Origin: Candidatus Daviesbacteria bacterium RIFCSPHIGHO2_12_FULL_37_16
Lineage (GTDB): Bacteria; Patescibacteriota; Microgenomatia; Daviesbacterales; UBA10151
NCBI GenBank assembly: GCA_001776785.1
Contig: MFDF01000004.1
Location: forward strand, 9,339 to 44,835
Direction: 5' to 3'
DNA: 35,497 nt
In this document: piece after piece, positions 182-22,997 of the stretch
Position numbering within the stretch: the stretch's first letter is position 1
Layout of the letters: each line of letters opens with the position of its first letter
Translations under genes and position numbers: made by a program
Notes under the pieces: model-generated
Told to the model about the DNA's origin: nothing
Seen by the model: only the letters and a program-made list of their open reading frames with translations
The model's database searches: none

Positions 182-579
182 CTTCCTTTTTTTTATGTTA
201 AATGTGGCTGAGTTAATTGCCACTTCTGCTAATCGCTTAGCAGTTCGGACTATATCTTCCTAATTCTTTAAGTTAAAAAGAGTAGGTCTGACGTATAGTC
301 TCTGAGGGTTCTACAGCGGTAGGCTGTAATCTTCCCTGCTGATTTACTCCACCGAACAGATTGTCACCATATTTGATGTGCGAAGTGTGCGATGGGAATG
401 TAGATTTAGAAATAGGATGTGGGACTAAAAAATCTCACCTCTCACTTCTTTTTTCCATCTTCTTACATCTAACTTCTCACTTCTAACTGGTACTGTCGGA
501 TACTGAGTTTTTCCAGCATATAGTCAGATTCAAAAATCACTAACACCAAAAACGTTTAACTCTCCTAAAGCAACGAATT
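182..579 (-). ncRNA. Group I intron in 23S at E. coli U1931/A1932, no ORF
   Basis: The exon reads CTATAAGAGTCCTATGGT up to base 580 and resumes as AGCGAAATTCC at 181. This is the known L1931 insertion site. The 5' exon ends in U and the intron ends in G (complement of base 182), as group I splicing requires. The P7 strands are visible: CAGAGACTATACG (about 293-309) and AAGATATAGTCC (247-258) pair through GACTATA/TATAGTC. No endonuclease is encoded. The intron's 5' half (about 430-487) is filled with GAAGTGAGA-type word repeats, so a peripheral loop has been colonised. P1 was not resolved. Confidence 0.85.
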
Positions 580-974
580 ACCATAGGACTCTTATAGTTA
601 AAGCCGCCGTTCACCAGAACTTAGACCAGAAACTCACTCATTGATTACTCTCAGAGGTCATCTCCAATTTTAATTTACTGGCACTGGGCAGGTGTCAGCC
701 CCTATACATCTCTTTTCAGATTAGCAGGGACCTGTGTTTTTGATAAACAGTCGCTCAGCGTCATTTATTGCAACCCGTATTTCTACGGGCAGGACATCTC
801 GCTAACTTACGTCCAGCTATATTGCCGAGTTCCTTAAGGATAGTTCTCTCGATAGCCTTTGTATACTCAACTCGCCCACCTGTGTTGGTTTTAGTACGGG
901 TTCTCTATGTTTCCATTACGAATCTTTTCCTGAAAACAGAAAAACTCTTTCTTCCGACATCACAACTTGTATTT

Positions 975-1041: not shown

Positions 1042-1420
1042 TGTAGAAGCGGATTTGCCTGCCTCCACTAACTTGTTGCTTGTACCAGCGTATAGCTGGC
1101 AAAGATTTTCCTACTCTGTTCATCCTTAATGGCTTCCTGATTTTGATTTCTCAAAACTTCAAAACTTGTCAAACATAAAAAAGTACAGGAATTTTAACCT
1201 GTTGTCCATCGGCTAATCCACTAACGTGGCCTGACCTTAGGACCGACTAACCCGACCCTGATTAACATGGGATCGGAAACCTTGGGCTTTCGGCTTGAAT
1301 GTTTCTCACATTCATACGTTACTCATACCGGCATTCTCACTTCTAAACGTTCCACCAAGCCTCACAGCTTAGCTTCATAACATTTAGAACGCTCCCCTAC
1401 CACCTCGCCTGCAAGGCGAG

Positions 1421-1537
1421 AATGTCCAATTTACAATTTTCAATTTACAATAAAATTTTAATTTCTTAATTTTCAAATGTTTGAAACATTTGAATTTTGA
1501 AAATTCATTGATAATTGGTACTTGATCATTGAAAATT
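1421..1537. repeat. AT-rich IVS-like insertion in 23S helix 45 region
   Basis: Between the strand following CCGAAGCTACG and the GGTAGGGGAGCG motif, E. coli has a short helix 45 tip. Here about 117 bp of AATTTTCAATTTACAA-type words is inserted, bounded by two small hairpins (CTTGTC..GACAAG at about 1538-1554 and CTCGCC..GGCGAG at 1403-1420). The insert forms a long imperfect hairpin around CAAATGTTTGAAACATTTG. Helix 45 is a classical site of intervening sequences that are cut out by RNase III without religation. Whether this one fragments the rRNA is not visible. Confidence 0.6.
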
Positions 1538-2244
1538 CTTGTCCTGCAGACAAGATTCGTAGCTTCGGTAGCAAGCTTAGCCCCGATACGTTGTCGGCGC
1601 TCAATTCCGTAGTAGACCAGCGAGCTGTTACGCTATCTTTAAAAGGTGGCTGCTTCTAAGCCAACTTCCTGGCTGTCTAAGGAACTAAACTTCCTTTAAC
1701 ACTTAGCTTGCATTTAGGGACCTTAACTGACGATCTGGGTTGTTTCCCTCAGGACCGCTCCGCTTAGCCGGATCGGACTGACTCCTGCTACAAAACATTG
1801 GTATTTGAAGTTTGATTGGAGTGACGACATTGCTGCCGCCAAATCCATCCAGAGCTCTACCCCCAATGTTATTACACAGGGCTATACCTAAATATATTTC
1901 GGGGAGAACCAGCTATCTCCGTGTTCGCTAGGCATATCACCTCTAACCACATGTCATCCCAACCTATTTCCACAGATACGGGTTCGGGCCTCCAACCGCC
2001 TTTCGGCGGCCTTCACCCTGCACATGGTTAGCTCACACGGTTTCGGGTCTATAAGTTATGACTAATCGCCCTTTTAAGGCTTGCTTTCACTACGGCTTCC
2101 CCGCCTTGACGGGTTAGCCTTGCCACAACAAATAACTCACCGGTTCATTCTTCAATAGGCACGCGATCATCCTCGATAAATCGGGACTTTCGCTGCTTGT
2201 CAGCATACGGTTTCAGGTACTATTTCACTGAGCGTTCCGCTCTT

Positions 2245-20236: not shown

Positions 20237-20452
20237 TAACCGATTTTAAGCGGGAAAGTTTTTTAGAGAAGACTTTCAACTTCTTACCACCATTTCAACA
20301 AACTGCGCTTGCGCTTAGCTTGTTAAAGCGTGAAGGTGATCGTGGATCAAACAGTGGCTATCATCCCTTGCGGGTTTATGAAATCCATCAGTTTGACCGG
20401 TTCTCCAGAAAGGAGGTGATCCATCCCCAGCTTCGGCTAGGGATACCTTGTT

Positions 20453-21168
20453 CATGTTACTCCACTCATTACTGAGGGCATGGACTATATCTTCATCCTA
20501 TAAATAGGAGTTGGCATATAATGAAAGTTTAATTCTGGATTATCCAGTACCTTCCATATAAGTCTCTACAGGTGATGAATTCAGAAAGACTCTGAATAAC
20601 TCAGACTGTCTGAGTATCAGAGGACCGGAAAGTTCCTCCAGATTGCCAATGACTGCATAGAGAGTTAATTCTTTTTGACAAAACTTTATATTTATCTGCT
20701 AATCTTTTAGCCTCAAAAGATAAGTTTGGTTGAACAATTGCAATCATCCTAAGATGAGTTATTACCTCATCACTAGAACCTATTGCAATCTTTAAGAATC
20801 TTTTAAACTCTTTTTCTGAGGATCGTTTTGCAAATCCTTCAGCTATATTTGCAGCTATTGATTTACCAGCTCGTCTAACCTGAAGTACCAAATCATATTC
20901 TGATTTAGCCAATCTTCTAGATAGACTATAAATTTCTGGTAATAATCTTAAAGCTTCTTGGTAAACTTCTAAGTCAGAAACGTCTTTGATCATAATTTAA
21001 TATTATCAGATCTTCTGATATTCTGAATATCTGGTTTACCGAGTCTTTCCGAGTTATTCTGAAAACACCTTCCCTCGATATTACCCATAAAATATGGGTT
21101 TCATCGATATTAGCCAATTTTTTCTATGTTTTTACAAACATAGGTCGCATCTTGTGCAGATTGCACTG
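20453..21168 (-). ncRNA. Group I intron in 16S at U1498/A1499, with ORF
   Basis: 716 bp between AAGTCGT and AACAAGGTA. The exon ends in U and the intron ends in G (complement of base 20453). The guide GCGAC (21144-21148) pairs with exon GTCGT with a U-G wobble at the splice site. The P7 strands are AGAGACTTATATGG (about 20554-20567) and AAGATATAGTCC (20482-20493). It encodes a four-helix S23/IVP protein rather than a homing endonuclease. It interrupts the 1492R priming site. Confidence 0.9.
20601..20993 (-). CDS. Four-helix-bundle S23/IVP protein encoded in a 16S group I intron
   Basis: 130 residues of the 23S intervening-sequence protein family (four-helix bundle). The start DVSDLEVYQEALRL, the middle QVRRAGKSIAANIAEGF and the end LRMIAIVQPNL..EAKRLADKY are characteristic. 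Members are usually encoded in intervening sequences of 23S genes, where their role is unclear; RNA or ribosome binding has been suggested. Here the gene lies inside a group I intron of 16S, where a homing endonuclease would be expected. It may act as a maturase-like or stabilising factor (inference). The last 15 or so residues run into the ribozyme core upstream of P7, so this tail is probably constrained by the RNA. Confidence 0.88.
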   Translation of the reverse strand: MIKDVSDLEVYQEALRLLPEIYSLSRRLAKSEYDLVLQVRRAGKSIAANIAEGFAKRSSEKEFKRFLKIAIGSSDEVITHLRMIAIVQPNLSFEAKRLADKYKVLSKRINSLCSHWQSGGTFRSSDTQTV

Positions 21169-21254
21169 ACGACTTAAGCCTCATCGCTGGTTTCACCTTC
21201 TACCCCTGTAGGGATATTCGGGTGCCCCCAACTTTGCTGCCTTGACGGGCGGTG

Positions 21255-22087
21255 ATCGGGATAAGAAACCTTTCCCTCCCCACTATACGTGCGCTTCTAA
21301 CGCATATAGCGAGTCTTCATGCTTTAAAGCCTTTCTTAAAGAACGGATTTCTTCAATCCCTTCTTCGGTAATATGCTTTTTCAAATCCATCATATCTGCT
21401 ACTTTGCAGAATATTTCAAATTGAAATCTTTTCTTAGCTAGAGGAGGATATTTTTTAAAGAAAGGTATTACTTTTTCTTTAATATCCTTGAATGAACCTA
21501 CTTGATATTTTACATGCGGTCTCCATTTTTTATACCGTTCATATTCTAAACGATAAATGGAACCACAATCTAAAGTTTTTTGAATCTCTTTCAAGATTAG
21601 TTCATCATCTTCTCTAAGTTCAATCTCAAATTTAAGCCGTACTTCTGGTACTCTGAATCGTCTTTTAGAAATGGTTATTGAAAAACAACCCTCTCCATCA
21701 ACAAATCCAGTAACATAATGTGGATTTAACATAAAGTTCATCCCTTCGGTAATTATTTGGGCTATCTATACTTTATTAAGTTTAGATAAACTTGTCAATT
21801 ACCTACTATGGACTCAGCTGACTTCCTAAGGCCTATTATTGTTCTGATGCCTTAGGATCTCCCTGGGTCATTTAAAAAACTGTTTCCGACATTCCTTGCG
21901 ACTTATTTTTTGTAACTTCTCTATCGTACACTGATAGATCGTCACAGTCTTTTTGCAAAGGCTGCCTTTTGTATATGGGACCCTTCAGACATTCTGTTAC
22001 CAGAGATGTCCTGTCCGCAACTATGCCACTTTCGTGGCAGATGGATTTACACCACCTAGTTTATTAAACTGCCAGGCGCATTTATTT
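21255..22087 (-). ncRNA. Group II intron in 16S at A1396/C1397, with LAGLIDADG ORF
   Basis: 833 bp between CTTGTACA and CACCGCCC. The 3' end carries domain V (about 21314-21278). It has a CGC triad pairing with GTG, the stem CTATA/TATAG, the two-base CG bulge, and the upper stem TGCG/CGCA. Domain VI follows as GGGA-AAG..CTT-A-TCCC. The bulged A is eight bases from the 3' end, and the intron ends GAT, so AY. The 5' end has six extra bases (AAATAA) before ATGCG, the likely counterpart of GUGYG. Domain I-like hairpins follow. LAGLIDADG-bearing group II introns with 5' additions are known from fungal mitochondrial rRNA genes. Confidence 0.82.
21283..21741 (-). CDS. LAGLIDADG homing endonuclease within a group II intron
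   Basis: 152 residues with one LAGLIDADG-type motif (YVTGFVDGEGCFSI, residues 9-22; the acidic catalytic residue is in GFVDGEG), so it should act as a homodimer. LKEIQKTLDCGSIY and KIDI-like strand patterns fit the family's single-motif members. It would cut intronless 16S alleles at the A1396/C1397 site to drive homing. The last codons (DSLYALEAHV-stop) are the same bases that form domain V of the ribozyme, so protein and RNA are locked together at the 3' end. No reverse transcriptase is present, unlike normal mobile group II introns. Confidence 0.9.
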   Translation of the reverse strand: MNFMLNPHYVTGFVDGEGCFSITISKRRFRVPEVRLKFEIELREDDELILKEIQKTLDCGSIYRLEYERYKKWRPHVKYQVGSFKDIKEKVIPFFKKYPPLAKKRFQFEIFCKVADMMDLKKHITEEGIEEIRSLRKALKHEDSLYALEAHV

Positions 22088-22997
22088 TGTACAAGAGGCG
22101 AGAACGTATTCACCGCGACCTGCTGATTCGCGATTACTAGCAATTCCGACTTCATGGGGGCGAATTGCAGCCCCCAATCTGAACTGAGGCGAAATTTCAG
22201 AGATTTGCTTCCTGTTACCAGGTTGCAGCTCGTTGTTTTTCGCCATTGTAGGGTGTTTGTAGCCCAGGGTGTAAGAGCCGTGCTGACTTGACGTCATCCG
22301 CTCCTTCCTTCCTAAAAATTAGGACTGTCCCGTATGAACTATTTAACATACGGCGCGGGTTTCGTTCGTTTGCCCACTTAAGGGGACAGCTCACGCCACG
22401 AACTTACGACAGCCATGCAGCATCTGTGTAGAACCCTCGAAGGAGGCCTACTTTCATAGGCTTAGCATCTACATGTCAAACCCTGGTGAGGTTTTTCGCT
22501 TTGTATCGAATTAAACAACACGCTCCACTGCTTGTGCGCCTCCCCGTCAATTCCTTTGAGTTTTAATCTTGCGATCGTACTCCCCAGGCGGGATGCTTAA
22601 CGGGTTACCTTGCGTCACCCAAAAAAATCGGGTAACTAGCATCCATCGTTTACGGCTTGGACTACGCAGGTCTCTAATCTGCTTCGCTCCCCAAGCTTTC
22701 GTGCCTCAGCGTCATGGGTTTCCCAGGTACCTGCCTACGCCTTTGGTGTTCCAGATCATATCAACGCATTTCACTGCTACACGATCTGTTCCAGTACCCT
22801 CTTAAACCATCAAGTTTACTCATTTCTTGCCCGAAACTATGGTTAGGCCATAGCCTTTCAAACAAGATGCAGTAAACCGCCTACGCAACACTTTACGCCC
22901 AATGAATCCGGATAACGCTTGCACCCTACGTATTACCGAGGCTTCTGGCACGTAGTTAGCAGGTGCTTATTCGCAAGGTACCGTCATAATCTTCCCT

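Follow-up and report, generated by a model that had tools for sequence, protein, structure and literature searches.

An S23/IVP gene within a 16S rRNA group I intron of a Daviesbacteria genome probably belongs to a nested palindromic element

The 35,497-nt stretch of a Candidatus Daviesbacteria genome analysed here (the window) contains a minus-strand rRNA operon whose 16S gene is split near its 3' end, at E. coli position 1498, by a group I intron, and an open reading frame (ORF) for an S23/IVP protein lies inside this intron. We consider it likely, with a probability of roughly 0.7, that this ORF is the gene of a nested mobile palindromic element of the intervening sequence (IVS) type and not the intron's own gene, and that the S23 protein acts on the arms of its own element. 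The cassette formed by the ORF and its arms is a recurring unit with relatives at the classic IVS site and in intergenic DNA, its arms pair in silico, its arm type follows the S23 lineage, and the S23 protein is under purifying selection. The coordinates of the features are listed in Table 1.

Table 1. Features of the position-1498 intron and of the cassette in its P6 loop (window coordinates)
Feature	Position	Strand	Remarks
Group I intron in 16S	20453..21168	-	716 nt; E. coli position 1498; from junctions, empty sites and covariation
P1, 5' exon strand GUCGU	21169..21173	-	partner internal guide GCGAC at 21144..21148; U.G at splice site
P2 hairpin CUAUGUU/AACAUAG	21124..21143	-	both-sided changes in 5/7 pairs
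P3, 5' strand UUGGC	21113..21117	-	3' strand GCCAA at 20511..20515; 4/5 pairs covary
P4 (UCGAU/AUCGA) and P5 (CCCAUA/UAUGGG)	21075..21107	-	J4/5 GAAA
P6	20570..21070	-	AGGUG 21066..21070 / CACCU 20570..20574; loop contains S23 cassette; read by eye
P7	within 20483..20564	-	GACU 20561..20564 / AGUC 20483..20486
P7.1	20551..20557/20521..20527	-	
P7.2	20535..20547	-	
P3' and P8	P8 at 20495..20510	-	within block 20483..20564
P9 hairpin and terminal omega-G	20453..20476	-	hairpin 20465..20476; omega-G 20453
IVS-type S23 cassette	20580..21063	-	484 nt; arms TTCAGAATAACTC... / ...GAGTCTTTCTGAA; in P6 loop
5' palindromic arm	20994..21063	-	70 nt
3' palindromic arm	20580..20621	-	42 nt; overlaps final ORF codons
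S23/IVP ORF	20601..20993	-	130 aa; PF05635, TIGR02436

The initial annotation had named a group I intron at these coordinates, which are exact: the minus-strand exon junctions read ..TTAAGTCGT / 716-nt intron 21168..20453 / AACAAGGTATCC.., and two relatives without the intron (L092 and L101) show the contiguous empty site TTAAGTCGT/AACAAGG. The P1 U.G pair, P7 and terminal G on which it relied are all present, the last intron base being G20453, and covariation and the empty sites agree with the assignment. Covariation was counted over nine introns at position 1498 from the family, with the ORF inserts cut out and the helices placed by hand (P1-P5, P7, P7.1, P7.2, P8 and P9), while P6 was excluded because its columns align poorly. 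The hand-set structure contains 97.7% standard pairs and 49 both-sided changes, compared to 13.6 in shuffles, and sliding the partners out of register lowers the pairing to 30-47%. The best covariation is found in P2 and P3. P1, including the U.G pair at the 5' splice site, and P7 are unchanged across the nine introns and are thus neutral in this respect. The generic group I model of Rfam (RF00028) scores the intron at 29 bits, below its gathering score of 50, which is a practical and not a biological criterion; the score is low because the ORF splits P6 and the core. The homologous intron of the genome G005 scores 34 bits with the same model. Since the Rfam alignment of the sub-threshold match misplaces the 5' half, the helices were placed manually, after which covariation served as the test. 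P7.1 and P7.2 lie between P7 and P3', which we take to be the subgroup IA architecture. The intron is thus a group I intron of subgroup IA-like type with a covariation-supported core, and covariation together with the empty sites in relatives rules out a chance look-alike. Such an intron probably self-splices.

Two further insertions were observed in the 23S gene within the window. A group I intron (226..586, minus strand; 55.5 bits) lies at 23S position ~1931, with a purine-rich palindromic insert that lacks an ORF in one of its peripheral loops, and an ORF-less A+T-rich palindromic insert (1402..1557, minus strand) occupies the classic helix 45 IVS site.

The ORF within the 1498 intron had been read as an S23/IVP four-helix protein and not a homing endonuclease, and the domain matches and the structure model confirm this reading. 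It matches PF05635 (1.7e-23, 83.3 bits, cut-off 33.8) and TIGR02436 (5.3e-24, 84.5 bits, cut-off 24), and the domain scan gave PF05635 only, with no LAGLIDADG, GIY-YIG or HNH domain. Structure prediction gives the protein a four-helix bundle (mean pLDDT 90), and its 12-residue tail (residues 119-130), which is mostly encoded by arm sequence, is predicted to be disordered. The closest folds are two members of the S23 family (2gsc, Z 18.3; 2rld, Z 16.4), followed by the Avd protein of a diversity-generating retroelement (DGR) in its complex with reverse transcriptase (RT) and RNA (8ube, Z 13.8). Unrelated helical bundles also reach Z 13, and the likeness to Avd may serve as a lead for RNA binding by S23 but is no proof, as the helix arrangement alone gives such a score. 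The nearest homologues, 78% and 76% identical in amino acid sequence, lie in 23S introns at positions ~2600 (G041, L014) and 2656 (G005, L015). The dN/dS values of the window S23 against these two are 0.12 and 0.17, and seven close S23 pairs give 0.05-0.17, indicating purifying selection on the protein. A scan of genome contigs with a narrow S23 alignment returned just the two known close homologues, one of them labelled Candidatus Daviesbacteria. A viral source of the S23 clade was also considered and dropped, as the one scan of viral contigs returned no relative of it.

The flanks of the ORF show that it is part of a separate palindromic unit within the intron. The DNA match between the window intron and L014 extends over 487 nt at 80% identity and covers only intron bases 106-592, namely the ORF and its two arms, and it starts and stops at the cassette ends (TTCAGAATAACTC...GAGTCTTTCTGAA). 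The L014 cassette also lies within P6 of its intron. The arm duplex of the window cassette is predicted in silico at -37.1 kcal/mol (z -7.8), and the arms of L014, L015 and L165 pair likewise in silico. Thus, the part of the initial annotation that placed the S23 ORF inside the intron holds, while the part that made it the intron's ORF probably does not, since the ORF belongs to the cassette. An IVS has been described as an S23-bearing stem-loop that replaces a terminal loop (PMC4990558). The window cassette likewise has an S23 ORF between complementary stem-forming arms, but it lies in P6 of a 16S intron and not in the terminal loop of a 23S helix (9, 25 or 45).

Other introns at the same position carry different inserts. 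Among the nine family introns at 1498, a LAGLIDADG ORF is found in P6 in four and in P8 in two, one is ORF-less, and two carry S23, the window's in P6 and that of G005 in P8; two endonuclease ORFs from 1498 introns that were scanned are LAGLIDADG_2 and LAGLIDADG_3. The S23 of G005 at this site is only 42% identical to the window's and has different arms. At the class level, two further 1498 introns carry S23 (G054 in P6 and G370 in P8), with yet other arms. S23 is thus not absent from the other introns at this site, and its presence there in other cassettes points to repeated insertion: on the best reading, S23 ORFs reached position 1498 more than once and settled in loops where endonuclease genes are also found. 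The genome of the window (G000) and G005 share the final 46 nt of their 1498 introns without a mismatch. In a side-by-side comparison of the two genera, L031:1924-2019 and window 20403-20498 are identical over these 46 nt and the next 50 exon nt; the intron bodies differ, and the identical 3' part suggests exchange.

S23 cassettes were also found at other sites. The genomes searched contain at least 12 group I introns with an S23 ORF, among them, besides those at 1498 and the two 23S introns with the window cassette's kin, further 16S introns (G008, G042 and G043) and 23S introns (G016, G002 and G323). The 23S ~2600 intron of G041 is also present in its congener G038 (90% identity in the 3' part), where P6 contains LAGLIDADG_1 in place of the S23 cassette. 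Another cassette is common to a 16S group I intron (L021), a 23S group I intron (L032) and L177 (82% identity over ~490 nt); L177 is an insert at 16S position 1400 and runs collinear with the group II intron of the window. Rfam gives no group II assignment for the L177 insert, and we treat it as putatively group II-like on account of its site and its collinear similarity to the window intron. That window intron (21240..22088, minus strand) is the second insert in the window's 16S gene, located at ~1400, and it has features of group II (D1-D4 34 bits and domain V 29.7 bits, both below cut-off); it is of a known CPR type and contains a 152-aa LAGLIDADG_1 ORF (21283..21741) and no reverse transcriptase. 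Relatives of the window S23 are also found in classic IVSs in 23S helix 45 (L018 and L019). Outside rRNA, an intergenic cassette (L026) matches the cassette in P6 of a 23S intron (L024) at 79-85% identity, and the homology stops at the loop tip. G041 carries an intergenic cassette behind polA, and its congeners G039 and G031 have contiguous empty sites there. In addition, the junction between polA and a convergent gene (L187 to L199) is an insertion hotspot in one genus and contains an S23 cassette, unrelated small genes of various kinds, or no insert at all.

The census shows that most S23 genes lie outside rRNA. PF05635 genes occur in 36 of the 45 family genomes, with ~160 matches, of which 11 lie in rRNA genes (nine in group I introns and two in IVSs; coordinates compared by eye) in a set of assemblies many of which lack rRNA. 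The presence of S23 in group I introns, to which the initial annotation had drawn attention, is thus no one-off, whereas its statement that the family is normally found in 23S IVSs does not apply here, as more than 90% of the family's S23 genes lie outside rRNA. The 11 of ~160 in rRNA exceed the share expected by length, but this does not show a preference for rRNA because rRNA introns make up a sizeable part of the scarce non-coding DNA. In a tree of 105 S23 proteins, whose sampling leaned to relatives of the window protein, a single clade of 39 rows takes in all 15 that reside in rRNA, and at least five changes of location are seen. This single clade could reflect a real taste for rRNA introns and not mere tolerance.

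The S23 genes outside rRNA were also compared with control ORFs for inverted repeats in their flanks. The median score is 24 for 78 S23 genes, a set that is not random because 60 added loci were hand-picked from the list, versus 17 for 309 control ORFs (Mann-Whitney p 1e-17), and 34 of the 78 lie above the control 95th percentile. The high score of L152 was rejected as an artefact of N runs, and some S23 genes, such as L001, L105 and L115, show no detectable inverted repeat. Protein similarity and arm k-mer similarity correlate for pairs at different sites (r 0.36; 0/2000 permutations), a correlation that is expected from transport as one unit, with or without recognition of the arms by the protein.

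The window's arm type also occurs in elements without an ORF and in S23 cassettes between genes, including those of the nearest intergenic S23 relatives. A 126-bp TCAGA-type palindrome with the same ends lies in frame in rplA of the same genome (L002:2541-2666, C5), where it forms residues ~69-111 of L1, a variable linker that relatives fill differently. A DNA search of this genome returned three ORF-less copies of the TCAGA palindrome, and a fold census covering 410 kb of it found only one such palindrome among the 27 strongest hairpins, indicating that the element is low-copy there. Similar ORF-less palindromes occur in 12 of the 45 family genomes, with ten in G013, and the copies looked at lie mostly inside open reading frames.

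According to the reading that we prefer, a separate 484-nt element would have inserted in the P6 loop of the 1498 intron, and its arms would pair in the rRNA precursor as a long hairpin stacked on P6. Self-splicing would then remove the element along with the intron, so the host rRNA would not be left cut, unlike with a classic 23S IVS. S23 may bind the paired arms of its own element, either as an RNA stem or as a DNA hairpin, and may thereby serve the persistence or spread of that element. It would not act as a group I splicing factor, and it has no recognisable nuclease domain. The element would occupy the LAGLIDADG slot of sister introns because the endonuclease loops of P6 and P8 are tolerated insertion sites. 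No recombinase or nuclease for the movement of the S23 element was identified in this analysis.

S23 might instead be a maturase-like or maintenance protein that binds the intron RNA, aids its folding or splicing and has taken the place of the homing endonuclease; the initial annotation had likewise suggested a role in rRNA binding, in helping splicing or in maintaining the intron. S23 ORFs do recur in the group I introns of several rRNA sites, in loops that sister introns use for LAGLIDADG ORFs; purifying selection acts on the protein, and its nearest fold relatives of known role, the DGR Avd proteins, work in an RNA-protein complex. However, same-site introns with LAGLIDADG or with no ORF are common, one S23 cassette is common to group I introns and a group II-like intron, most S23 genes lie outside rRNA and many of these have palindromic flanks, and it is the arms that move along with the protein and not the ribozyme core. 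The identical last 46 intron nt also argue against this role, since in G005 they accompany a different S23 in another loop. We therefore regard a maturase-like function as improbable, and the case for S23 as a group I-specific factor is weakened by the same-site introns that lack S23 and by the group II-like case.

The cassette could also be inert baggage, with S23 taking no part in its spread and copies arising via rRNA-operon recombination or intron homing. The Coxiella S23, reported as not made and decaying (PMC4990558), would fit this explanation, as would the tolerance of intron terminal loops for inserts and the tract exchange between lineages suggested by the shared 46 nt of G000 and G005. 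We give it the same low standing as the maturase-like function, since the dN/dS values indicate that the protein is selected, and the intergenic copies with empty sites in congeners exclude an origin by intron homing or rRNA recombination, neither of which can yield such copies. Slightly less probable still is that S23 acts in trans as an Avd-like accessory of an RT that copies palindromic RNA into new hairpin loops or DNA sites. The S23 model aligns to DGR Avd, after the two S23 structures, and the genome has a DGR with bAvd and RT, but this DGR already has its Avd, the S23 cassettes have no linked RT, and a common four-helix fold that unrelated bundles share at Z 13 shows no function. The DGR itself, comprising bAvd, variable-repeat-like ORFs and RT, is split over two contig ends, L077 (C17) and L078 (C1).

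Among known systems, the helix 45 IVS of Coxiella burnetii (428 nt, compared to 484 nt for the window cassette) is alike in that an S23/IVP ORF between complementary arms replaces a terminal hairpin loop (PMC4990558). Unlike it, the window element lies in the loop of a presumably self-splicing 16S intron, so its removal should occur by splicing with ligation and not by RNase III fragmentation; in addition, the window cassette has kin outside rRNA, and its S23 is under purifying selection, whereas that of Coxiella is decaying (PMC4990558). In CPR genomes, the main text of Tsurumaki et al. (2024; PMC11270868) reports 23S_rRNA_IVP ORFs in 16S and 23S insertions as well as group I introns; it also places LAGLIDADG proteins at 1498 and, at 1400, group II introns that carry LAGLIDADG. 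This main text describes no palindromic cassette, P6/P8 nesting, intergenic copies or LAGLIDADG swap. Judged against it, IVP ORFs in CPR rRNA insertions are already known, and the nesting and the cassettes outside rRNA are apparently new. The literature searched, which is thin in subscription papers, gave no account of S23 cassettes that are nested in the loops of introns or lie outside rRNA, and nothing on S23/IVP with group I introns or palindromic elements beyond these two papers and one DGR paper.

Dispersed palindromes in other bacteria offer further comparisons. By description, the Rickettsia palindromic elements resemble the ORF-less TCAGA-type copies inside reading frames, but the palindrome here also has a protein-coding version. 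REP/RAYT systems likewise combine dispersed palindromes with a protein partner, and here the arm sequence follows the protein lineage; S23, however, is a small four-helix bundle and not a Y1 transposase, and mobilisation driven by S23 is a conjecture. The DGR Avd proteins (bAvd, PF22296) have the same four-helix fold (Z 13.2-13.8) at ~8% sequence identity, whereas the window ORF matches PF05635 and the DGR of the same genome has its separate bAvd.

A wider reading, which we put forward tentatively and as somewhat less than an even bet, is that a large class of mobile palindromic elements may be dispersed over CPR genomes, with the S23/IVP proteins as its dedicated partners. The rRNA IVSs and the intron-nested copies would be only the rRNA-resident part of this class, ORF-less miniatures would be scattered and would even extend protein genes, and each S23 lineage would recognise its own arms.

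S23/IVP proteins have been known from rRNA IVSs for decades and, to our knowledge, have no assigned function. That S23 travels with its arms across group I introns, a group II-like intron, 23S loops and intergenic DNA is a clue to its partner, and the question of its function becomes a binding question, namely whether it recognises its own arms. The 1498 intron would also present one mobile element nested in another, in the slot usual for a homing endonuclease, and it warns against assigning an ORF to an intron just because it lies inside it.
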